Positions 5,526 through 19,950 of a DNA stretch of 33,132 nt are shown here, piece after piece (positions within the stretch are counted from its first letter, which is position 1; every line of letters starts with the position of its first letter). A program made the translations under genes and the position numbers. Under the pieces are notes generated by a model. That model ran no database searches. It had not been told where the DNA came from and saw only the letters and a program-made list of their open reading frames with translations. Source of the DNA: Candidatus Kuenenia stuttgartensis (GTDB lineage: Bacteria > Planctomycetota > Planctomycetia > Planctomycetales > Planctomycetaceae); assembly GCA_945861465.1 (NCBI GenBank), contig CAMAVB010000060.1, positions 1-33,132 of the forward strand, given 5' to 3'.

Positions 5526-7871
5526 TCATTCGTATCGCAGAAACCTGCGACGGCGGTTCAGAAATCGAGCCAGCTCTTCAGCCCAGAGTGGTTCGATTTC
5601 ATTCACGCTATGGCCAGCCTCAATCGCTTCGATTGTCTTCTGGCTGCAGAGAAGTCGATTGAGATTCTGCCTGTCCCACTCATCGCTGTGCAATGCTTTC
5701 AGGCTGCACATGAGCTGGATGCCAGTGGAAAGCGGGTGGAATCTGGCTCGATCCGTGACAATAATATTTACGCCGTTGCACGTTTCCGTGGAGTATTTTG
5801 ACGAAGTTGGAACAAATCGGACTGGCACGAATCGAACTCCGACCAGCCCGGCATTGTTCAGATGTGCGGCGAATCCGGGAGCATCGATCCACGGCGCGCC
5901 GACGACTTCAAACGGTGTGTCCGTTCCGCGCCCCACAGAGACATTGGTCATCTCAATCAGTCCCACACCCGGATACAGTATCGCTTGAGTCAGGCTGCGC
6001 ATGTTGGGCGAAGGATTGGTCCAGACGAGTCCTGTCTGATCAAACATTTGATTTCTCGTCCAGCCATCGACTGGAACAATTTCCAGGTCCACATCCAGCT
6101 TCAGCTCCGCGCGAATCATCGCAGCCAGTTCACCGGTCGTCATGCCGTGGCGCACGGGCAGGGAATGGAAACCCACAAAGGATTCGTCGCCTTCGTCCAG
6201 TACCGGTCCCTGCACATCGACACCGCTGATCGGGTTGACGCGATCCAACACCACGAACCGAATTTTATGTTCGCCAGCCGCCTGCATCGCGCTTCCCATC
6301 GTCGAAACGTACGTGTAGAAGCGACAGCCAATGTCCTGGATATCAAAGACCAGCGTGTCGATTCCTTCCAGACTCTCGGCGGTCGGGACTCGCGTCTCGC
6401 CGTACAGACTGAAGACTTTCAGGCCCGTCGCGGCGTCCTGCTGGTCCGCGATTTTCGGGATATCAAGTTTGCCTTCCAGCCCGTGTTCGGGGCTGAAGAG
6501 TGTTTTCAGGGTGACACCGTCTGCATCGTGAATCAGACGAATCGTGCTGACGCCGTCGCGGTTGAGTCCCGTTTGATTGGTGATCAGGCCGACATTGTGG
6601 CCCTTGAGCATCGTAAAGCCATTTCGCTGCAGAACATCGATTCCATTGAGCACATTCATGTTCGGTGCTGAGGCTGCTTCTCGGACCAACGTCTGGACAA
6701 TCGCCGCACTTGCGATCGTTCCGATGCGTCCAATGAGTGGATTCACGAGGCCCTTGCCGTCCGGATGAACTCGGTTCGACAGAAAAATGACATACAAATT
6801 CTGCACAGGGTCAATCCAGATTCCGGTGCCAGTAAACCCGCCATGTCCGAAGGCCTGCGATGACATTAGATCGCTGCGATTCGAAGAATATCCCGTCTTT
6901 GCATCCCAACCAAGAGCTCGCCTCCCGCGCGGAATCTCCACTGCCGTAGTCATCAGCTTATACGTCGATGCATCCAGGATCTGCACGTCGTGAAGCCGCC
7001 CGCCGCCAAGCATCATCGTGGCATAGCGCGCCAGATCGTTGGCCGTCGAGAACAATCCTGCATGGCCAGCGATGCCATTCAATGCGAAGGCTCGCGGATC
7101 GTGAACTTCGCCCTGCATCCAGTGTCCGTCCCGCTGTTCCGTGACGGCTGAACGGGCCTTGAGTTCATCGTTTGGCAAGTAACCGGTTTCCGTCATTCTC
7201 AGCGGTTCGAAAATATGTTCGTGGGAAAAATCATGCACATCCTTGCCACTGACAGCCTTCACCACCTGCCCGAGGACAATAAAACCGACGTCGCTGTAGG
7301 TGAAACTCTCACCGGGGGCGGCTGTTGGCTTGAGGCCGTAGATCCTGGCAAACGCCTCATCAGCTCCATCGACATAGTCGCTCATGGAGTTGTCGGCGAT
7401 GAGTCCGCCTGTGTGCGTCAGCAGATGACGGATGGTAATTGTCTCTTTGCCGTTCTGAGCGAACTCTGGCAGATACGTGGCAACAGTGGCATTCGGATCC
7501 AGTGTGCCCTGTTGAATCAACGCCATCACGCTCGTCGCTGTCGCGATGGGCTTCGTAAGTGACGCCAGATCGAACACCGTATCAACTGTCATATCGACTT
7601 TTTCCGGCTGCAACTGGCGAAACCCATAGACGCGACGAAACGCGATCCCCTCGCGGCGACCGATCAGCACGACACAGCCCGGCATCTTGTCCTGTTCCAG
7701 CCCTTCCTGCACGATGTCGTCGATCCGATTCAGGCGCGTGGTGTCCATGCCGACACTTTCGGGTGACAGCAACGGGATCTCGGGTGGCGATTGAGCATGC
7801 ACGCTCGCCGAAAGAAGAAAGCACAGCAGGAGAAAGAGCAGGTATTTCAGGTGGATGGATTTAGATACCAT
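5526..7871 (-). CDS. serine beta-lactamase-like / NamZ (DUF1343) exo-muramidase fusion
   Basis: This 781-residue exported protein has a signal peptide at about 1-27. A class C beta-lactamase/AmiE-type serine hydrolase domain follows at about 35-390, with the catalytic SLTK at 104-107, YSD at 192-194 and a GHGG motif near 340. The C-terminal half, about 400-781, is DUF1343, the NamZ exo-beta-N-acetylmuramidase family (GH171). It carries the family motifs VGLITNQTG, LFSPEHG, DIQDIGCRFYTY and the NPSPNMR region. In Bacillus subtilis the separate proteins AmiE and NamZ act with NagZ on cell-wall fragments. Here amidase-like and muramidase-like domains are joined, suggesting one enzyme that trims peptide and releases terminal MurNAc. 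The symporter gene lies 165 nt upstream on the same strand, across a repeat block. The domain calls are strong; substrate and reaction order are inferred. Confidence 0.93.
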   Translation of the reverse strand: MVSKSIHLKYLLFLLLCFLLSASVHAQSPPEIPLLSPESVGMDTTRLNRIDDIVQEGLEQDKMPGCVVLIGRREGIAFRRVYGFRQLQPEKVDMTVDTVFDLASLTKPIATATSVMALIQQGTLDPNATVATYLPEFAQNGKETITIRHLLTHTGGLIADNSMSDYVDGADEAFARIYGLKPTAAPGESFTYSDVGFIVLGQVVKAVSGKDVHDFSHEHIFEPLRMTETGYLPNDELKARSAVTEQRDGHWMQGEVHDPRAFALNGIAGHAGLFSTANDLARYATMMLGGGRLHDVQILDASTYKLMTTAVEIPRGRRALGWDAKTGYSSNRSDLMSSQAFGHGGFTGTGIWIDPVQNLYVIFLSNRVHPDGKGLVNPLIGRIGTIASAAIVQTLVREAASAPNMNVLNGIDVLQRNGFTMLKGHNVGLITNQTGLNRDGVSTIRLIHDADGVTLKTLFSPEHGLEGKLDIPKIADQQDAATGLKVFSLYGETRVPTAESLEGIDTLVFDIQDIGCRFYTYVSTMGSAMQAAGEHKIRFVVLDRVNPISGVDVQGPVLDEGDESFVGFHSLPVRHGMTTGELAAMIRAELKLDVDLEIVPVDGWTRNQMFDQTGLVWTNPSPNMRSLTQAILYPGVGLIEMTNVSVGRGTDTPFEVVGAPWIDAPGFAAHLNNAGLVGVRFVPVRFVPTSSKYSTETCNGVNIIVTDRARFHPLSTGIQLMCSLKALHSDEWDRQNLNRLLCSQKTIEAIEAGHSVNEIEPLWAEELARFLNRRRRFLRYE

Positions 7872-7892
7872 GAATGATGCTTTCTGGCAGGA

Positions 7893-7914
7893 GCTTGGAC
7901 ATGAATGTCCAAGC
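7893..7914. repeat. perfect 10-bp hairpin between symporter and muramidase genes
   Basis: GCTTGGACAT and ATGTCCAAGC pair perfectly around a GA loop. The core is the palindrome also found at 3602-3615. It lies 22 nt upstream of the muramidase start codon, so in RNA it could influence translation initiation or mark a processing point. Confidence 0.6.
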
Positions 7915-7997
7915 TACAGGAATCGCGCTCGACTCGGAGAGTCAAGCTACGGGAATTGCGTTCGACTCGGAGAGTCAAGTTACAGGAGTCGCCCTCC
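7910..7997. repeat. 33-bp tandem repeat, two full units and a partial third
   Basis: Units at 7910-7942 and 7943-7975 and a partial unit at 7976-7997 start CAAGYTACRGG and contain CTCGACTCGGAGAGT or close variants. The end of each full unit with the start of the next forms a small hairpin (CTCGACTC pairing with GAGTCAAG). An inverted, slightly diverged copy lies at 29079-29114. With two complete units it is not a CRISPR. It occupies the gap between the symporter and muramidase genes and may lower read-through between them. Confidence 0.75.
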
Positions 7998-8035
7998 TGT
8001 GAGGATAGCTATTCCTGAAAGTTGTTAAACCGATT

Positions 8036-9556
8036 CTATCGAACGTCGCTCAATGCCGCATCTCGCTTTGAATCAAACGCGATTGAGGCAATCAGTCCGA
8101 AGGTGATTGTGGCAAGTGCGCCGATCGGCGCGTACCATGGCCAGGCAATCGGAGTCCAGAATTTTACCATGCACAGCACCAATGTGCCTTCGAGCATGCC
8201 GATCATGGCACTCAGCTGACCGACACGCTTCGTCAGAACACCGAGTGCGAAAACGCCCACCAGAATCCCGCTGGAGAATCCGGCAATCGCCAGTGCATTG
8301 TCGATCACGCTGCGTTCCAGCTGAATGGCCGCAATTGCCAGACCGATCTGAAGGACACCAAACACCAGCGTCAGCAGGCGACTGAGCCGAAGCTGCGTGC
8401 GGGGCGTTCCGACATCTTTCAGAAAGTCATTGACGACCGCTCCGGCAGAAGAATTGAGTGAACTGCTGAGAGTCGACATGGCTGCGGAAAAGACTGCTGC
8501 CAGCATCAGACCCACCATTCCGACGGGCATCCTCTGGACGATGAAAGTGGCAAATACTTCATCACTGCGAGCAAACTTCGGACTGTTCGGCTGCGTGTCG
8601 TAAAACGCCGCGAGGGCGATACCAAGAAACAGAAACAGCGTGAACTGCAGGAACACAACCAAGCCGCTCACCACCACCGCTTTCGCAGCCCCGCGCTGAC
8701 TGTCCGTACACAGATAACGCTGCACCATCATCTGATCTGTGCCATGTGTTCCCAGTGACAGCAGGGAACCGCCGATTAATCCGGCGAGAAACGTATTGGC
8801 TTTCGTGAAGTTGACGAACAGGGAATACGGCCGTGAGGCATCAATGCCTGAATCGAAGAACGCCAGTTTGTTGTGACCTTTCGCAAAACTCATCATTTCT
8901 AACCAGCCACCTGGCAACATCTGGACAATGAGCACCAGCGCCACAATTCCGCCGCTCAGATAGATCAGCAGTTGAATACAGTCACTCCAGATCACGGCCT
9001 TCATGCCACCGACGAAGGTGTACGCGATCGTGCAAACACCGACAATTATGATGCTCTGTGGCAGTCCAACACCCGCCACTTTCTCAACAACGATTCCGGC
9101 CAGCAGCAGCCGCAGGCCGTCGCCAAGGTTGCGGGTCACCAAAAATATGAGAGACGCGGTCTTTTGCGTAATGCCGCCGAATCGCTGATGCAGCACTTCG
9201 TACGCCGTGAAAAGTTTGCCCTTAAAGTAGAGCGGGATCAAATGTGTGGCGACGATCACGCGACCGACACAAAACCCCAGAGCCAATTGCAGAAACTGCA
9301 GGTTGCCACCTTCAGCAAAAGCAATCCCAGGCACACTCAAAAATGTGGCTGTACTCGTTTCTGTAGCGACAATCGAACCCAACACGGCCCACCATGGCAG
9401 ACTGCGATCACCCAGCAGGTAGTCCGAAACGGTCTTATTGTCGCGTCCGATCCAGAAACCAATTCCCGTCACGATTGCGAGATAAACGGCCACAATCGCA
9501 GCGTCAAGTGACGAGATTCTAAGAGCGAGCAACTCAGGGAAGACATGATTCATCAT
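8036..9556 (-). CDS. sodium:solute symporter (SSS family)
   Basis: This is a 506-residue inner-membrane transporter with about 13 hydrophobic segments and SSS-family features: an N-terminal YLAIVTGIGFWIGR, SDYLLGDRSLPWW, ATETSTATFLSVPG, a GGMKAVIWSD segment and a LSSSLNSSAGAVVNDF motif matching the family's Na+-site region. SSS proteins use the Na+ gradient to import sugars, amino acids or sialic acid. The substrate cannot be read from the sequence, but position between a muramidase and envelope genes makes a cell-wall sugar or muropeptide a reasonable guess. I place the start at the ATG at 9554-9556, 11 nt after the cyclotransferase stop. An ATG three bases later, or one at 9587-9589 overlapping the upstream gene, is also possible. 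Confidence 0.93.
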   Translation of the reverse strand: MMNHVFPELLALRISSLDAAIVAVYLAIVTGIGFWIGRDNKTVSDYLLGDRSLPWWAVLGSIVATETSTATFLSVPGIAFAEGGNLQFLQLALGFCVGRVIVATHLIPLYFKGKLFTAYEVLHQRFGGITQKTASLIFLVTRNLGDGLRLLLAGIVVEKVAGVGLPQSIIIVGVCTIAYTFVGGMKAVIWSDCIQLLIYLSGGIVALVLIVQMLPGGWLEMMSFAKGHNKLAFFDSGIDASRPYSLFVNFTKANTFLAGLIGGSLLSLGTHGTDQMMVQRYLCTDSQRGAAKAVVVSGLVVFLQFTLFLFLGIALAAFYDTQPNSPKFARSDEVFATFIVQRMPVGMVGLMLAAVFSAAMSTLSSSLNSSAGAVVNDFLKDVGTPRTQLRLSRLLTLVFGVLQIGLAIAAIQLERSVIDNALAIAGFSSGILVGVFALGVLTKRVGQLSAMIGMLEGTLVLCMVKFWTPIAWPWYAPIGALATITFGLIASIAFDSKRDAALSDVR

Positions 9557-9566
9557 GGATTGCAGA

Positions 9567-10442
9567 CTACTTACGCAGTTCAATTTCATACAACGTCGGC
9601 CAGTTTTTTCCGGTCACGAAAAGGCGTTGAGCCTGATCGTCCCAGGCAATGCCATTCAACACGGCTTCGCGATCGTTTTTGACTTCGCGTGGTCGCAAGT
9701 GCGACATTTCAATCCACTCGGTCACCTTGCCAGACTCAGGATCGATGCAGGCGATGCGGTCTTCGTACCAGACGTTGGCAAGAATCCGACCGTTGGCAAA
9801 TTCCAGTTCGTTCAGTTTCGTGATCGCTTTCAGACCGGACTTGACACGAATAGTCTTCTCCACCTTGAAGGTTTCCGGGTTGATAAAACGCAGATCCGCA
9901 CTGCCGTCGCTGAGGATCAATGAATGGCCGTCGTGCGTGATTCCCCAGCCTTCAGCAAGTTTCGGGTCAATGTCGCTGTATCGCACATAGCCCTTGCTTT
10001 GCAGCGTCTTGACATCGTAGACCAGCATGTAACCGTTGCGCCAGGTGAGCTGATACACACGGTCTTTCCAGATCGTGACGCCTTCGCCAAATACGTCGTC
10101 CGTGTTTTTTTGATCGAGCACGGATCTGCCCGTATCGATGTCAACCAATCGCAAGCGTGAATTCTGATACTGACCTGTACCTTCCAGCAAGCGTCCTTCG
10201 TGCGTGACCAGACCCTGACAAAACGCCGTGCGGTCGTGGGGATATGCTTTGACCATGACCGCTTTTGTCACCGGTGGAGCGGCAGATTCAGCAGCTGGTT
10301 TTGGCAGCAGGAGGGCGGCACCTGCTGCCACCGAGGCAATGAACAGTGCGACAATCGGCATCACGGTCCTCCTTGACCGATGCGACCGGTTTTCCGCTCG
10401 CAGTGTTGAATCAGGTTTCGCCTGGATGTTGGCTGCAGGCAC
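9567..10442 (-). CDS. glutaminyl-peptide cyclotransferase-like beta-propeller
   Basis: This 291-residue protein belongs to the plant/bacterial glutaminyl cyclotransferase family, which closes N-terminal glutamine to pyroglutamate. Family motifs are plain: YPHDRTAFCQGL at 67-78, FGEGVTIW, YQLTWRNG, EGWGITHDG, LILSDGS, KLNELEFANG and FVTGKNWPTLYEIEL at the end. An N-terminal hydrophobic stretch at about 28-46 suggests a membrane anchor or signal peptide, with the propeller outside the cytoplasm. A start at residue 28 (MPIVALF) is possible and would give a more conventional signal sequence. It begins 17 nt after the lipoprotein gene and ends just before the symporter start, so the three are probably co-transcribed. 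A structural rather than catalytic role cannot be excluded. Confidence 0.9.
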   Translation of the reverse strand: MPAANIQAKPDSTLRAENRSHRSRRTVMPIVALFIASVAAGAALLLPKPAAESAAPPVTKAVMVKAYPHDRTAFCQGLVTHEGRLLEGTGQYQNSRLRLVDIDTGRSVLDQKNTDDVFGEGVTIWKDRVYQLTWRNGYMLVYDVKTLQSKGYVRYSDIDPKLAEGWGITHDGHSLILSDGSADLRFINPETFKVEKTIRVKSGLKAITKLNELEFANGRILANVWYEDRIACIDPESGKVTEWIEMSHLRPREVKNDREAVLNGIAWDDQAQRLFVTGKNWPTLYEIELRK

Positions 10443-14891: not shown

Positions 14892-14950
14892 GCGTCCGAG
14901 TTTCCTGAGTTCGGATCACCACGAACGCGCACCGACCAGGGCGGGCGGCA

Positions 14951-14985
14951 ATTTTTGATTTTTGTTTTTGGATTTTGGATTTTGG
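14951..14985 (+). repeat. T-rich heptad array (ATTTTTG / ATTTTGG)
   Basis: Five consecutive 7-bp units read ATTTTTG twice, TTTTTGG once and ATTTTGG twice. It shares the 7-bp period with the ATTTGAA arrays but not their sequence, and lacks their GC-rich tail. It lies 81 nt before the PTE-family gene and could affect DNA curvature near that promoter. Confidence 0.7.
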
Positions 14986-15066
14986 ATTGACCGGGCGACG
15001 ACAATGCCGCAGGGATTGTTTTCCTGACAGTTCGATACAGACATGTTCACAGCTGGAGAATGAACG

Positions 15067-16020
15067 GTGAGTGACGATTGGAATTCCCGGGAAGTGATTA
15101 CTGTCGATGGTATTATCCGGCCAGAAGAAATGGGAGTGACGTATCCGCACGAGCACTTGTTTCTCGACGCGATGGATCACTACAGCAGTTATGGCTATCA
15201 ACTGGTCATTGATGACGAAGATGTGATGGCTCAGGAGATTCTGGAGTTCACTAAACTCGGCGGGCGGACAATCTGTGATGTTACGCTCGATGAGATTGGA
15301 CGTGATCCGGAGCGGCTGGTTCGGTTTTCGCGCCGGACAGGAATCAATGTCGTGATGGGTTGCGGATGGTATCGCGATTTTGGGTATCCGCCGATCGTGG
15401 CGGAAAAGACGAGTCGAGAGCTTGCTGAAATTCTGGTGCGGGAGATTGAGATCGGCGTCGGTGATACCGGTATTCGAGCCGGGTTCATCGGAGAGATTGG
15501 TACAGGGCGACACTACATCAAGCCTGCGGAGGAACGCGTCTTTCGCGCTGCCGCCCTGGCTCAGGCTCGCACGGGCGTTGTGATCTCAACCCACACGACG
15601 CGCTGGGGAACGCTGGCGATGGAGCAGATCGCCATGCTGGACGAGTTTGGAGCCAACCTGTCGCGCGTGATCATCGGTCACCTCGGTGACCGAATCGGTG
15701 TGAAGCATCTGCTGCCGATCGCGGAGAAGGGCGTCTACCTTGAAGTCGATAATATCGGCTATCTCGACTATCAGCCGGAGTCTGTCCGCGCCGACAACGT
15801 GGCCGCGCTGGTCACCGAGGGATTCGTTGATCAGGTTCTGCTGTCGGAGGACATCTGCATGCTGAATCACCTCAAATACACCGGCGGTAAGGGTTACGAG
15901 TATCTTCTGAAGGTCTTTGTGCCGTTGCTGCGGGAACGCAGCGTGACGGATGAACAGATTCATCGGATGATGGTGGTCAATCCGGCAAATGCGTTTTCGC
16001 GGAGACGTCGCGAGATTTGA
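15067..16020 (+). CDS. phosphotriesterase-family (PHP/COG1735) metal hydrolase
   Basis: This 317-residue cytoplasmic TIM-barrel hydrolase of the amidohydrolase superfamily has all expected metal ligands: His28 and His30 (YPHEHLFLD), bridging Glu143 (IGEIGTG), His176 (STHTTR), His205 (IGHLGD) and Asp262 (LSEDIC). The Glu bridge, in place of the carboxylated lysine of true phosphotriesterases, places it with the PHP type. Characterised COG1735 relatives include sugar lactonases, so a lactone or ester substrate is more likely than an organophosphate. The GTG start follows a GGAGA sequence by 6-8 nt; the ATG 7 nt upstream is out of frame and stops at once. It is the first gene of a four-gene plus-strand cluster, 119 nt before the SelA-like gene. 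Its TGA stop lies inside the first unit of a heptad array. Confidence 0.93.
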   Translation: MSDDWNSREVITVDGIIRPEEMGVTYPHEHLFLDAMDHYSSYGYQLVIDDEDVMAQEILEFTKLGGRTICDVTLDEIGRDPERLVRFSRRTGINVVMGCGWYRDFGYPPIVAEKTSRELAEILVREIEIGVGDTGIRAGFIGEIGTGRHYIKPAEERVFRAAALAQARTGVVISTHTTRWGTLAMEQIAMLDEFGANLSRVIIGHLGDRIGVKHLLPIAEKGVYLEVDNIGYLDYQPESVRADNVAALVTEGFVDQVLLSEDICMLNHLKYTGGKGYEYLLKVFVPLLRERSVTDEQIHRMMVVNPANAFSRRRREI

Positions 16021-16121
16021 AATTTGAAATTTGAAATTTGAAATTTGAAATTTGAGATTTGAGATATCAATCGCGGGGCGTCGCCCACGCGGTTAAACGA
16101 ATGAGCCATCCTCAACCGCGC
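16015..16121 (+). repeat. ATTTGAA heptad array plus conserved GC-rich tail, copy 2
   Basis: Seven 7-bp units (five ATTTGAA, two ATTTGAG) fill 16015-16063. A tail follows with a CGGGGCGTCGCCCACG hairpin and ATGAGCCATCCTCAACCGC. It is the counterpart of 11732-11832; the tails match at most positions. The first unit contains the TGA stop of the PTE-family gene. The rest fills the gap to the SelA-like gene, so it lies inside the presumed operon mRNA. Confidence 0.85.
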
Positions 16122-16139
16122 GCGGTGTAAGCAGACAAC

Positions 16140-17339
16140 ATGTTGGAACAATTCGGCATTCGCCCCATCATCAACGCGGTGGGTTATGCGACCCGCGTGA
16201 GTGGCAGTTGCCCGCATCCGGAAGTCATCGCCGCTATGAGCGCTGCGAGCGCTCAGTATTTCGAAATTGACGATCTGCTGACTGCCGCGAGTACACTCAT
16301 CGCGCGATGCACTGGAGCGGAAGCGGGCGTGGTGACCTGTGGAGCCGGTGCGGCGCTGACGCTGGCTGCCGCCGCGTGCCTCGCAGGAAATCGCCCGGAG
16401 ATAATGGATCAGCTGCCGGATGTTTCCGCCTGTGCTCGTAATGAGATCATTTTCCCGGTGCCCGGACCGTTCGACTATGACCACGCGATTCGTCTTTCCG
16501 GAGCGAAACTTGTACTGATCGATTATCGAGCGGCCGATGCGCTGCGGCAGATCGAACGGGCGATCACTTCGAGGACGGCGGCCATCGGATTTGTGTGGTT
16601 GCGGGTGGACGAGCGGCCCGACATCACCGCCCTGACAGAGCTCGCTCATCAGCATGGGCTTCCGTTAATCGTCGATGCGGCCTGTGCTTTGCCTCCGATG
16701 GAGAACCTCATATCTTTCAGCCAATGCGGCGCGGATCTGGTCGCATACAGCGGCGGCAAGCATCTCGGCGGTCCTCAGGCATCCGGAATCCTGTGCGGTC
16801 GAGCAGATCTGATTCGGAGCGCGTGGGTTCAAATGGTCGATATGGACGTGCGGGAGGGAACTTGGTCGCTGCAGCACTGGATTGCGGCGGGCTGGCTGTC
16901 ACGACCGCCGCGACACGGAATTGGCCGGTCGATGAAAGTCAGCAAGGAGTCCATTGTCGGGGTCATGGCGGCACTGCAGCGCTACGCCACGCGAGACCAT
17001 GCGGCTGAGCATGAGAACTGGCAAGCCGCAATTGAAAAGATCTACCGCGGGATTTGCGAAGTCCCGGAACTGCACGTCACGCGACTCGCGCAAGGAATGA
17101 ACGGTCAACCCTATCCGAATTTGCAGATTGAATCAGGTTCAGCGGCGTTGGGCCTGAGTGTGCGGGATCTCCTGCTGGCACTCAGGAATCGTTCTCAGAA
17201 GATCATTCTGGCGGAGGACGAGCAGTCTCCCGACCGCGCGTTCCTGTACGCTCAATGCCTGCAACCAGGTGATGCCGAGGAGATCATCTCCGGCATTCGG
17301 CAAGTTGTCTCCTCTCACCGTGATCGGATCGTGCAATGA
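16140..17339 (+). CDS. SelA-like PLP-dependent enzyme (DgaE/COG1921 type)
   Basis: This 399-residue fold-type I PLP protein is related to L-seryl-tRNA(Sec) selenium transferase but probably not a selenocysteine enzyme. The PLP lysine is Lys207 in AYSGGKHLGGPQASGI, and the cofactor aspartate is in LPLIVDAACALPP. The N-terminus (FGIRPIINAVGYATRVSGS) matches the metabolic SelA-like branch, which includes D-glucosaminate-6-phosphate ammonia lyase DgaE. No selB, selD or tRNA-Sec is nearby. Its stop overlaps the start of the COG3964 amidohydrolase by 4 nt, showing translational coupling. The same pair, SelA-like plus COG3964 amidohydrolase, is known from Enterococcus (EF0837/EF0838 region), usually with a KDPG-type aldolase that is missing here. 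Likely reaction: ammonia elimination or transamination on an amino-sugar acid or similar 2-amino acid; inferred. Confidence 0.92.
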   Translation: MLEQFGIRPIINAVGYATRVSGSCPHPEVIAAMSAASAQYFEIDDLLTAASTLIARCTGAEAGVVTCGAGAALTLAAAACLAGNRPEIMDQLPDVSACARNEIIFPVPGPFDYDHAIRLSGAKLVLIDYRAADALRQIERAITSRTAAIGFVWLRVDERPDITALTELAHQHGLPLIVDAACALPPMENLISFSQCGADLVAYSGGKHLGGPQASGILCGRADLIRSAWVQMVDMDVREGTWSLQHWIAAGWLSRPPRHGIGRSMKVSKESIVGVMAALQRYATRDHAAEHENWQAAIEKIYRGICEVPELHVTRLAQGMNGQPYPNLQIESGSAALGLSVRDLLLALRNRSQKIILAEDEQSPDRAFLYAQCLQPGDAEEIISGIRQVVSSHRDRIVQ

Positions 17340-18505
17340 GTCCCAATGCTTCTCTGATTCGAAATGGCGACGTTTTTGACGGCACGGGCGGTCCGGCACA
17401 ACGCATCGATCTTCGTGTTGCCGACGGACTGATTCAGGAGATCGGTCCGAACCTCATGGCCAACGGTGAAGAGGTCGTCGAGGCCGATGGCCTGATCGTG
17501 GCTCCTGGATTGATCGATCTGCATGTGCATGTCTTCAGCGGCATTGGGCTGTATTCAATCGATCCGTTTGAAGCTGGCCTGCGAACCGGCGTAACGACGA
17601 TGCTTGACACCGGAACAGCGGGGGCATTGACTTATGCAAACATGGCCCGCTTTATCATGCCGGCCGCGCAGGAAGATGTCTTCGCTCTGCTGAACATTTC
17701 GATGATTGGCTGTATTCAGGGACACCCAAAGTTTCCGCCATATATGGGCGACCTGAATGACGGGCGGCACGCCCATGTTCCGTCAGCGGTGGAATGCGTC
17801 AAACGCTTTCCTGAACGGATTATCGGAATGAAGGTGCGGCTGACATCGGGATTGGCGAACTTCGAAGAAAAGAACGAGCTGGCCGGTTTTCATGGGGTAT
17901 TCGAGGCATCGGAGTTGACCGGCCTTCCGTGCATGATCCACCACATCGCTTCGAGGATTCCAGCGGAAACTGTTCTGAATGCGCTGCGTCCCGGCGACAT
18001 TTACACCCACCTCTATCATCCGCATCCGGATCACAGATTCGACGACCACGGTGCTCCGCTGGATGCGATGCTTGAGGCCCGTGCGCGCGGAGTTCTGTTC
18101 GATGTCGGCCACGGCGTCGGAGCGTTTGTGTGGAGAGTTGCGGAACCGGCCTGTCAGAATTTCGGTTTCTGGCCTGACACCATCAGCACCGACCTGCATC
18201 AATTCAACCTGCGTGGCCCGGTCGTCGATCTGCCCACAACGATGAGCAAGTTCCTGTATCTTGGCATGCCGCTCGCACAGATCATTCGTGCGACGACATC
18301 CGCTCCTGCCGCAGCCATGCGACTTCAGGATCGGCTGGGTGTGTTGCAGGCGGGACGCCAGGCTGACATTGTCCTGCTGCGACGAGAACGCGGAAGTTTC
18401 CCGCTGATGGATGTGGAGCATCAGACGCGGGTCGCACCGGAACGCATTGTCCCGATTTCCGTTTGCAAGCGTGGCCAATGGACAGCCTGTGGAGTGACCT
18501 CATGA
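17336..18505 (+). CDS. COG3964 amidohydrolase/deacetylase
   Basis: This 389-residue amidohydrolase-superfamily enzyme is often misannotated as dihydroorotase. Its metal site is intact: His63 and His65 (LIDLHVHVF), Lys166 (GMKVRLT) as the likely carboxylated bridge, His202 (MIHH), His225 (THLYH) and Asp286 (STDLH). The C-terminal beta-sandwich tail ends GRQADIVLLR...KRGQWTACGV. A characterised relative, Atu3266, hydrolyses acetyl-(R)-mandelate and N-acetyl-D-amino acids, so removal of an acyl group is the best guess. ATGA overlaps on both sides (with the SelA-like gene and the MFS gene) place it in the middle of a tight operon. Likely cytoplasmic, acting right after uptake by the adjacent transporter. 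Confidence 0.92.
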   Translation: MSPNASLIRNGDVFDGTGGPAQRIDLRVADGLIQEIGPNLMANGEEVVEADGLIVAPGLIDLHVHVFSGIGLYSIDPFEAGLRTGVTTMLDTGTAGALTYANMARFIMPAAQEDVFALLNISMIGCIQGHPKFPPYMGDLNDGRHAHVPSAVECVKRFPERIIGMKVRLTSGLANFEEKNELAGFHGVFEASELTGLPCMIHHIASRIPAETVLNALRPGDIYTHLYHPHPDHRFDDHGAPLDAMLEARARGVLFDVGHGVGAFVWRVAEPACQNFGFWPDTISTDLHQFNLRGPVVDLPTTMSKFLYLGMPLAQIIRATTSAPAAAMRLQDRLGVLQAGRQADIVLLRRERGSFPLMDVEHQTRVAPERIVPISVCKRGQWTACGVTS

Positions 18506-19950
18506 TGCGACCAACATCTATTCGTATCGTCGTTGTCGCACTACTGACAATCGTGGCTTGCTTGTTGTACCTTGACAGGTATGCCATGGGAATTGCAGCG
18601 GAGTCGATGCGCGTTGATCTCGGGATGACGCAGACACAGGTGAGCTATTCCTTTTTCGCATTCTTCATTTCCTATGCTCTGTGCCAGGTTCCCGCGGGCT
18701 GGCTTAGCGATCGATTTGGACCTCGAGTCATGTTGACAGCGTACATCCTTGGATGGTCGTTGTTCACGGGTCTGCTCGGAGTGACCACGCAGGTCGGAAT
18801 CCTGCTGCTGCTGCGATTTCTGTGCGGTGCAACTCAGGCGGGTGCGTACCCGGTCTGCTCCGGGATGATCCGCCATTGGTTTCCTGTCGCGCGACGAGGA
18901 CTTGCGAGTTCGATCGTCGCGATGGGCGGTCGATCAGGGGCCGTCCTCGCTCCAATCCTGACTGCCTCCCTCATGATCGCTTTCGCCGCAAACTGGCGAC
19001 CTGTTCTCATCCTGTATGGTCTGGTGGGAATTCTTGTCGCTTCTGTGTTTGCCTGGATTTGCCGCAATACGCCGCGCGATCATCCGCTGTGCAACGAAGC
19101 TGAACGCGAACTGATCTCGGGCCACAGCCCGGTTGTTTCCGGGATCGTTCCGGTCAGGGAAGCTCATAGACAATCCGGAGTTGATGAATCACATGGAGCA
19201 GGTAATCCGTATGCAGTGATTGAAGCAGCCCGCTCAAACGAGGCAGATGAAAGAAGTCGTTCAGAAAAAACAGATGAGTCCACCAATGAAAGCCTGGGGT
19301 TTCCCATAATTCCCGTGCTGACCAGCATCAGTTTGTGGGGAAACTCGCTGACACAGTTCTTCACGAATATTGGCTGGCTGTTTGTTGTGACATGGCTCCC
19401 TCGTTATCTGGGGAATGTGCATCAAGTGCCACTGCAGGAGCAAGCCGTGATGACCGCCATTCCAACTGCCGCCGGAATCGTCGGGATGCTCTTCGGTGGC
19501 TGGTGGACCGACGTTGCAGCCCGGCGCTTTGGCCTGAAATGGGGTCGATGCCTGCCAGTCACAGCCACACGATTCACAGCCGCCTGCGGTTACGGTCTGT
19601 GTCTGATCCTCGGTCTGCTCTATGTCCCGGATCCCGGTTCGCGCTGGCTGCCGTGGATGATTATCCTTGGACTCAGTATCGCCACCTTCAGTTGTGATCT
19701 GGGTGTCCCGGCGATGTGGGCGTATTCCCAGGATGTCGGTGGCAAGTACACCGCGTCAATTATGGGCTGGGCCAATATGCACGGCAACTTCGGTGCCGCC
19801 GTCGCCACCCCACTTTACGACGCAATCCTCGGTGAAACCCCATCTCTCTCGCAATGGAATACCCTATTCGCGTTCTGCACTGCGGTGTTTGCCCTGTCCG
19901 GCGTCACGGCATTGGTGATCGACTCAACAAAACCGATCGCACGCAAGTGA
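18502..19950 (+). CDS. MFS transporter, ACS (anion:cation symporter) type
   Basis: This 482-residue membrane protein has 12 predicted transmembrane segments. The ACS subfamily signature is clear near the N-terminus: YLDRYAMGIAAESMRVDLGM, then YALCQVPAGWLSDRFGPR between TM2 and TM3, as in hexuronate, galactonate and glucarate transporters. A hydrophilic central loop of about 60 residues between TM6 and TM7 (from HSPVVSGIVPV to the NESLGFP region) is longer than usual. The start is taken as the ATG at 18502, which overlaps the amidohydrolase stop as ATGA and has GGAG about 8 nt upstream. An in-frame TTG at 18463 would extend it into the upstream gene and is less likely. As the last gene of the cluster it probably imports the acid substrate processed by the three enzymes. 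Confidence 0.92.
   Translation: MMRPTSIRIVVVALLTIVACLLYLDRYAMGIAAESMRVDLGMTQTQVSYSFFAFFISYALCQVPAGWLSDRFGPRVMLTAYILGWSLFTGLLGVTTQVGILLLLRFLCGATQAGAYPVCSGMIRHWFPVARRGLASSIVAMGGRSGAVLAPILTASLMIAFAANWRPVLILYGLVGILVASVFAWICRNTPRDHPLCNEAERELISGHSPVVSGIVPVREAHRQSGVDESHGAGNPYAVIEAARSNEADERSRSEKTDESTNESLGFPIIPVLTSISLWGNSLTQFFTNIGWLFVVTWLPRYLGNVHQVPLQEQAVMTAIPTAAGIVGMLFGGWWTDVAARRFGLKWGRCLPVTATRFTAACGYGLCLILGLLYVPDPGSRWLPWMIILGLSIATFSCDLGVPAMWAYSQDVGGKYTASIMGWANMHGNFGAAVATPLYDAILGETPSLSQWNTLFAFCTAVFALSGVTALVIDSTKPIARK

Follow-up and report, generated by a model that had tools for sequence, protein, structure and literature searches.

A conserved hydrolase, SelA-like enzyme and COG3964 amidohydrolase operon in a planctomycete genome, a candidate for the catabolism of N-acylated amino-sugar acids

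What is broken down by the products of four adjoining plus-strand genes at positions 15067-19950 of a 33,132-nucleotide contig (CAMAVB010000060.1, assembly GCA_945861465.1) labelled Candidatus Kuenenia stuttgartensis? We call this whole stretch of DNA the window. The genes encode a PTE-family hydrolase, a SelA-like pyridoxal phosphate (PLP) enzyme, a COG3964-type amidohydrolase and a major facilitator superfamily (MFS) transporter of the anion:cation symporter (ACS) type (Table 1), hereafter PTE, PLP, COG3964 and the transporter. The four genes form a real operon, and its role would be the catabolism of an acylated compound. We favour, at about even chances, the reading that the operon serves to break down an N-acylated beta-hydroxy-alpha-amino acid in the cytoplasm, the likeliest candidate being an amino-sugar acid (a 2-acylamino-2-deoxy-aldonate) or its lactone.

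Table 1. Features of the window and their coordinates.
Feature	Position	Strand	Remarks
PTE-family hydrolase, PHP/PTER-like	15067..16020	+	317 aa, GTG start; Glu143 at the metal-bridging position; Arg179 aligned with PTER Arg204
SelA-like fold-type I PLP enzyme, outside the DgaE/Cap15 branch	16140..17339	+	399 aa; proposed ammonia-lyase on an unphosphorylated beta-hydroxy-alpha-amino acid
COG3964-type amidohydrolase, proposed deacylase	17336..18505	+	389 aa
MFS transporter, anion:cation symporter type (ACS)	18502..19950	+	ATG 18502 taken as start; ~482 aa
AAATTTG tandem repeat in the PTE-PLP gap	~16020..16061	.	read from sequence
beta-lactamase-fold domain and exo-N-acetylmuramidase NamZ fusion	5529-7871	-	
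SSF sodium:solute symporter	8039-9589	-	
glutamine cyclotransferase	9570-10442	-	

A preliminary description of the window had reported that the last three genes are joined by ATGA overlaps and that all four have intact catalytic residues, and the open reading frames (ORFs), overlaps and invariant residues bear this out. The PLP stop codon and the COG3964 start codon overlap as ATGA at 17336-17339. The transporter ORF is listed as 18463-19950 from a TTG; because starting at the in-frame ATG at 18502 creates a further ATGA overlap (18502-18505), we adopted the shorter protein of Table 1. PTE and PLP are separated by a gap of 119 bp (16021-16139). Pfam matches were PF02126 (248.8 bits), SelA (32.8), Amidohydro_1/3 (about 56) and MFS_1 (179.8 bits), and within its own genome PTE had one match, PLP one (E 1e-10 or better) and COG3964 one full and two weak partial matches. 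A scan for promoters and terminators returned sites no more numerous than in shuffled sequence. A short AT-rich tandem repeat, TTTTGGA-like, was seen at about 14950-14990, in the gap preceding PTE.

Is this arrangement peculiar to the window? We scanned 84,980 species genomes with nine PLP orthologs as query, relying on two peptide patterns of the window clade that more distant kin would escape, and obtained 21 loci, all from metagenome bins whose taxon labels can be wrong. The labels include Planctomycetota, Acidobacteriota (four loci), Verrucomicrobia (one) and Spirochaetaceae (one). A gene order not conserved among relatives had been named beforehand as grounds for giving up the earlier proposal; what we found was PTE directly upstream of PLP in 19 of the 21 loci and COG3964 downstream of PLP in 18. 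The PTE-PLP-COG3964 core of the four-gene order thus held, whereas the transporter came next in only seven loci (in L089 it lies 6.3 kb upstream of PTE) and is outside the conserved core. Exceptions to the PTE-PLP adjacency are L073, with just 162 bp of upstream sequence, and L093, from which PTE is absent though part of it should fit; the 19 include L074 (the same as L054), whose PTE copy (8532-8981) is without residues 61-226. The bin of L074 (G014) also has short scattered COG3964 pieces on four contigs, by decay or as an assembly artefact. In L074 and L080 the contig ends within COG3964, and about 0.6 kb and 0.3 kb lie between this gene and PLP in L086 and L087, respectively. In L079 and L088 the COG3964 ortholog is on another contig of the same genome (77% and 64% identity), and in L079 a 2-hydroxyacid dehydrogenase gene stands 3′ of PLP, in the usual place of COG3964. 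The three-gene order was found in Planctomycetota and Acidobacteriota loci and PTE-PLP in one Verrucomicrobia bin, with protein identities of 50-88%, and because the order is conserved across phyla at such identities the operon is more than chance. Its occurrence is scattered. A PLP at least 65% identical is found in 7 of 59 relatives, six of these carriers (own genome included) belonging to the window's genus (18 of the 59 genomes); across the phylum, four genomes out of 392 have one, each with PTE adjoining PLP. Several of the 21 loci appear to come from genomes that also figure in these two sets.

The three core proteins have diverged in parallel, since their pairwise distances correlate with r 0.85-0.95 (16 loci; permutation p 0.0005). 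In a joint tree of the 16 loci, the four Acidobacteriota copies fall in a 100/100 clade of eight together with the window and L075-L077, and L082 and L089, from what appear to be genomes of the window's own genus (G004 and G003), fall outside it; the tree of the operon thus cuts across both phylum and genus. The simplest reading of these sequences would be that the operon moved as a block between lineages, binning errors being also possible. The direction of transfer is not readable from the tree, because the Acidobacteriota rows form one side of a branch supported only 93/91 and the root is a midpoint root. The operon apparently is both conserved and mobile. The L082 operon is very close to that of L089; the former is labelled Candidatus Kuenenia, probably wrongly, and the latter Planctomycetales.

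Which reaction could the PLP enzyme catalyse? A profile search gave DgaE (7lc0) and Cap15 (8t7j) as best matches, and Foldseek with an AlphaFold2 model (pLDDT 88.5, pTM 0.87) placed Cap15 first (TM 0.80) and DgaE next (TM 0.79). In the DgaE study (PMC9529869), His163 is the proton donor, an H163A mutant releases the enamine, and manual docking brings the phosphate close to Arg301/332/346 and the carboxylate close to Arg226. Among 22 rows of the window clade, the equivalent of the PLP lysine Lys213 (K207 in the window) is present in all and that of Arg226 in 21. The aligned His163 position is a gap in all 22, although the loop around it is shortened and gap placement depends on the alignment; the His162 position is His in two rows, a His lies further along in L078 and L092, and 17 rows are without any His in that loop segment. 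Arg301, Arg332 and Arg346 are replaced in all 22 rows (by N/L/M/V/S, A/S and Q/L/S/T/M, respectively). Scores against the DgaE models lie below the curated cutoffs (TIGR01437, 172.5 of 385.3 bits; NF047797, 152.6 of 600 bits). A tree of 43 rows, from which L064, L070 and L101-L103 were omitted, sets DgaE and Cap15 apart from everything else (100/100) and gathers the window clade into a single group (100/100). The cutoff scores, the His163 gap, the lost Arg triad and the separate branch rule out that the enzyme is DgaE itself. The window clade also has 26 extra residues between DgaE positions 226 and 242; as a trait of that clade this loop was discarded, given that 13 other SelA-like rows, haloarchaeal and Mesorhizobium ones included, have it.

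Because the phosphate clamp of DgaE is lost, the substrate is likely to be an alpha-amino acid without a 6-phosphate, and the earlier idea of a non-phosphorylated pathway gains support from the same loss. Without the proton donor of DgaE, the enzyme would either let the enamine leave or rely on a different residue. RidA-family genes hint at the former: they lie near SelA-like genes in Granulicella, Haloprofundus, Aureimonas and Sagittula, which fits enamine release as in DgaE H163A, and there is none in the window operon. The slight lead of Cap15 over DgaE in the Foldseek matches suggests a different role, an O2-dependent oxygenase like Cap15 whose carboxamide product would be cleaved by one of the hydrolases. 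However, Cap15 keeps the Arg triad and a His163 equivalent, both lost in the window clade, and it groups with DgaE rather than with that clade, and we consider such an oxygenase very improbable.

The PTE enzyme is the candidate for a ring-opening step. Its best profile match was E. coli PHP (4lef/1bf6), followed by 3k2g and PTER (9efa). In 19 aligned rows (the shortened L074 copy left out), H28, H30, E143, H176, H205 and D262, which we take to be the metal ligands, are invariant. The bridging position thus carries Glu143 in the 19 rows, not the carboxylated Lys that the sugar-lactonase subgroup presumably has, and the sugar-lactonase model NF045706 gave 104.1 of 630 bits; the PHP equivalog NF007373 gave 228.7 of 486 bits, also below its curated cutoff. 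By its sequence the enzyme belongs to the Glu-bridged PHP/PTER group. Arg179, present in 19/19 rows, aligns with PTER Arg204 (by an offset of seven deduced from PTER Glu169), which the PTER study lists among the residues that may contact N-acetyltaurine (PMC11374699). From our reading of the alignment, PHP is without an Arg179 equivalent and PTER His300 corresponds to Cys264 of the window enzyme. An anionic substrate is plausible, a lactone and an amide both being options. The lactonase role given to PTE in the preliminary description therefore stands in part: lactonase genes do occur in two related operons (see below), but the enzyme falls in the Glu-bridged group and scores far below the sugar-lactonase model, and an amidase is the alternative. 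Relatives of PTE at 33-38% identity in other gene contexts gave no lead.

If PTE does open a lactone, breakdown of N-acyl-homoserine lactones also has to be weighed, with COG3964 removing the acyl chain and PLP eliminating from homoserine. The chemistry of the three steps matches, and PTE-like lactonases acting on N-acyl-homoserine lactones exist. However, such lactonases presumably have a carboxylated Lys where all 19 rows have Glu143, COG3964 members prefer D-configured N-acyl substrates, and beta-hydroxy amino acids are the substrates of DgaE and Cap15, the structural relatives of PLP; we give this route little credence.

The COG3964 enzyme had the same best structure matches by sequence and by fold (8je0, 8wzy, 2ics and 2ogj), its AlphaFold2 model reaching a pLDDT of only 80.2 with low stretches, and scored 332.5 of 371 bits over residues 7-383 against NF006689 (PRK09237), below the curated cutoff. 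H63, H65, K166, H202, H225 and D286, presumably the binuclear metal ligands, are invariant in 17 aligned rows (the contig-cut L074 and L080 copies left out). That COG3964 and SelA-like enzymes belong together, as earlier suggested, was upheld in two surveys. Among the 392 genomes of the phylum, COG3964 is present in 13 (at E 1e-30 or better), 10 of which have a PLP match as well (E 1e-10), against 36 of 392 overall; the co-occurrence p of 2.9e-9, or 2.4e-8 without the own genome, is too small, since genomes are related, at most four candidates were scored per genome and the weakest PLP matches may be true SelA. Of 202 plasmid records with a COG3964 relative we viewed 13, picked for variety, and six had an annotated SelA-like or DgaE gene (28-33% identity to the window PLP) within about 5 kb. 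The association thus extends beyond the window clade.

The six plasmids with such a gene have the following neighbourhoods. Priestia has the order COG3964-DgaE-KDGP aldolase-sugar kinase-GntR-gluconate:H+ symporter; Klebsiella and Bartonella have COG3964-DgaE-KDGP aldolase, to which Klebsiella adds a beta-propeller lactonase. Granulicella has RraA-SelA-like-RidA-PLP-COG3964-lactonase-BBE oxidase, with a beta-propeller lactonase and an RraA-type aldolase, and Aureimonas and Sagittula have ABC transporter-COG3964-RidA-SelA-like, where the SelA-like identity was checked. The Rhizobium COG3964 neighbourhoods gave no lead. Within the phylum we observed a second cluster type (L067; G023:C184, 5852-15076) with two SelA-like, two COG3964, MFS, MR/enolase and M81 genes. 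In three loci of one genus (L101, L102 and L103), COG3964 lies between dipeptide-type ABC transporter-like ORFs, with SelA-like and SDR-like genes nearby and, in L101, also hydantoinase A and URO-D family genes.

Such neighbourhoods also bear on another substrate class. The operon could serve catabolism of N-acyl-D-amino acids or acylated small peptides, PTE and COG3964 acting as two amidases or esterases and PLP deaminating a D-amino acid such as D-serine or D-threonine. COG3964/SelA-like pairs adjoin annotated ABC transporter genes in Aureimonas and Sagittula, and the same pairing was seen, from the look of translated ORFs only, in the three genomes of one planctomycete genus. The G023 cluster combines SelA-like, COG3964 and MFS genes with MR/enolase and M81 ones; in Mesorhizobium, genes for M81, dipeptide epimerase and an ABC transporter are found close to a SelA-like gene. 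PTER hydrolyses N-acetyltaurine (PMC11374699), and the Arg aligned with its Arg204 is invariant in the window group. On the other side, the window transporter is of the ACS/galactonate type, the Phycisphaerales copies of the operon have adjoining sugar genes, and the related operons carry lactonase and aldolase genes. We regard this explanation as unlikely, though more probable than the other rivals.

Against the ACS model TIGR00893 the transporter scored 213.8 of 395 bits, below the cutoff but best of 36 models. In two Phycisphaerales copies (L091 and L092), a GFO/IDH gene and a xylose-isomerase-like gene stand directly upstream of PTE; both were identified by Pfam in L091, where a GH42 gene is also nearby. 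Pfam likewise recognised the isomerase of L092, and the L092 oxidoreductase was identified from its 57% identity to the L091 protein. The preliminary description had noted the absence of 2-keto-3-deoxy-6-phosphogluconate (KDPG) aldolase. This is correct for the window and wrong for the genome, where the gene (PF01081) is on contig C308; it is present in 17 of the 19 carrier genomes searched, out of 23 known (L080, L086, L088 and L093 left out). Since 8 of 14 control genomes also have it, its presence is permissive and not diagnostic.

What the sequences show is which genes are present, in what order, how they are conserved, that the core proteins diverge in parallel and which residues are kept; for the N-acylated amino-sugar acid that we favour, we infer all of the following reactions, the substrate and the order of steps. 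The ACS transporter, where present, would import a small organic acid, the PTE-family enzyme would open a lactone (or cut an amide), and the COG3964 enzyme would take off the N-acyl group. The SelA-like enzyme would then form an aldimine with the free alpha-amino group and eliminate the beta-substituent, yielding ammonia together with a 2-keto-3-deoxy acid. A kinase with KDPG aldolase, or some other aldolase, encoded outside the operon would take over this acid. The earlier interpretation, whose substrate and order of steps we likewise infer, is on the whole partly supported.

Several observations speak against this reading. No aldolase, kinase or dehydrogenase gene is found inside the window operon. 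The characterised member that we found in the PHP/PTER group, PTER, is an amidase and not a lactonase. Three rows of the PLP alignment (L088, HH; L090, HG; L091, QH) have a His one or two residues off the position said to be lost. L093 is missing both neighbours, its genome having only less similar COG3964 copies, and in G018 PTE-PLP is accompanied by a COG3964 relative only 40% identical. Seven of the 13 plasmid records had no annotated SelA-like gene nearby, two of them sharing one Rhizobium arrangement and annotation being incomplete. Finally, an AA10 lytic polysaccharide monooxygenase (LPMO; PF03067) was found in none of the 19 carriers searched, and LPMO-derived oxidised chitin is an unlikely source.

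The operon might also work in peptidoglycan salvage, together with the NamZ/beta-lactamase fusion and the SSF gene at 5529-9589 of the window. Apart from the presence of these genes in the same window, G403 has a 56% relative of the beta-lactamase part next to the operon, and relatives at 27-28% adjoin more distant SelA-like genes in G235, G280 and G291. However, NamZ occurs in 3 of 7 operon carriers against 28 of 52 non-carriers among the 59 relatives, and the other operon-bearing loci examined, some of them short, have no beta-lactamase neighbour. The carrier counts do not support the link, and we judge it the least probable of the explanations considered. The fusion appears to be common in the group: in many relatives NamZ is embedded in a long open frame (about 780-965 aa). 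Beta-lactamase-fold genes 27-28% identical to the window domain were seen near distant SelA-like genes in L027/L071, L029 and L031 (genus g39).

A narrower claim, which we advance tentatively and with less confidence than the substrate class, is that the operon encodes a phosphate-free route, so far undescribed, by which N-acyl amino-sugar acids or the corresponding lactones are degraded, combining a Glu-bridged PTE lactonase or amidase, a COG3964 deacylase and an ammonia-lyase of the SelA-like branch. We found no tested member of that branch, and no paper on this gene combination in a search that misses most subscription journals. If true, roles would follow for three enzyme groups at once: the SelA-like branch, which spans planctomycete, acidobacterial, Mesorhizobium and haloarchaeal members, the Glu-bridged PTE group including E. 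coli PHP, and COG3964. In bacteria that have no LPMO, acylated amino-sugar acids could then enter the Entner-Doudoroff route with no phosphorylation beforehand. Since the residues differ from those of DgaE, the claim lends itself to a direct test with D-glucosaminate and its 6-phosphate.

How does the operon compare with known systems? PTER, the N-acetyltaurine hydrolase, and E. coli PHP share the Glu metal bridge with the window PTE, and the PTER Arg204 equivalent is kept; the differences are the score below the PHP cutoff, the Arg179 that PHP does not have and the Cys264 in place of PTER His300. With DgaE (PMC9529869), the window PLP enzyme has in common the fold, the PLP lysine and the carboxylate Arg, whereas the His163 gap, the missing phosphate Arg triad, the 26 extra residues and the separate 100/100 branch set its clade apart. 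A putative DGA in haloarchaeal chitinase gene clusters has been proposed to act with a CE14 deacetylase, a glucose dehydrogenase and a kinase step (PMC12343721). The SelA-like enzymes of three haloarchaeal plasmids resemble the window enzyme in the long loop and the His163 gap; PIG-L deacetylase, aldose epimerase, Rid or GFO/IDH genes lie near two of the three, and heparinase and dipeptide ABC transporter genes near the third. The published proposal has CE14 and glucose dehydrogenase in place of COG3964 and PTE, and its genes may be of the same kind as our plasmid rows (PMC12343721).

A comparable unphosphorylated N-acetylglucosaminate route, with other enzymes, is already published (PMC9537276). 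In this oxidative chitin (Ong) pathway of Pseudoalteromonas, an unphosphorylated N-acyl amino-sugar acid is deacetylated and then deaminated (PMC9537276, PMC12017989), with 2-keto-3-deoxygluconate (KDG) as intermediate; deacylation followed by deamination without prior phosphorylation is what we propose for the window operon. OngB is D-aminoacylase-like, the window deacylase matching PpOngB chains only over residues 4-97 (about E 1e-6), and the Ong transporter is of the SSS family, whereas that of the window is an ACS-type MFS protein.

The closest likeness is to the COG3964-DgaE-KDGP aldolase operons of Klebsiella, Bartonella and Priestia, which we take to be of the EF_0837 type. There, too, COG3964 directly adjoins a SelA-family PLP enzyme, and the gluconate symporter of Priestia and the lactonase of Klebsiella belong to the same operons. 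Their annotated DgaE differs in keeping His162/163 and the Arg triad (two rows tested, L114 and L115; the triad is present in all three DgaE rows compared). They carry the KDGP aldolase, whereas the window operon has a PLP enzyme of a different branch along with a PTE-family enzyme and lacks an aldolase, and this mismatch of branches counts against the pathway that we favour. Taken together, the window operon would best be read as a non-phosphorylated variant of the known COG3964-DgaE catabolic operon to which a PTE-family enzyme has been added.

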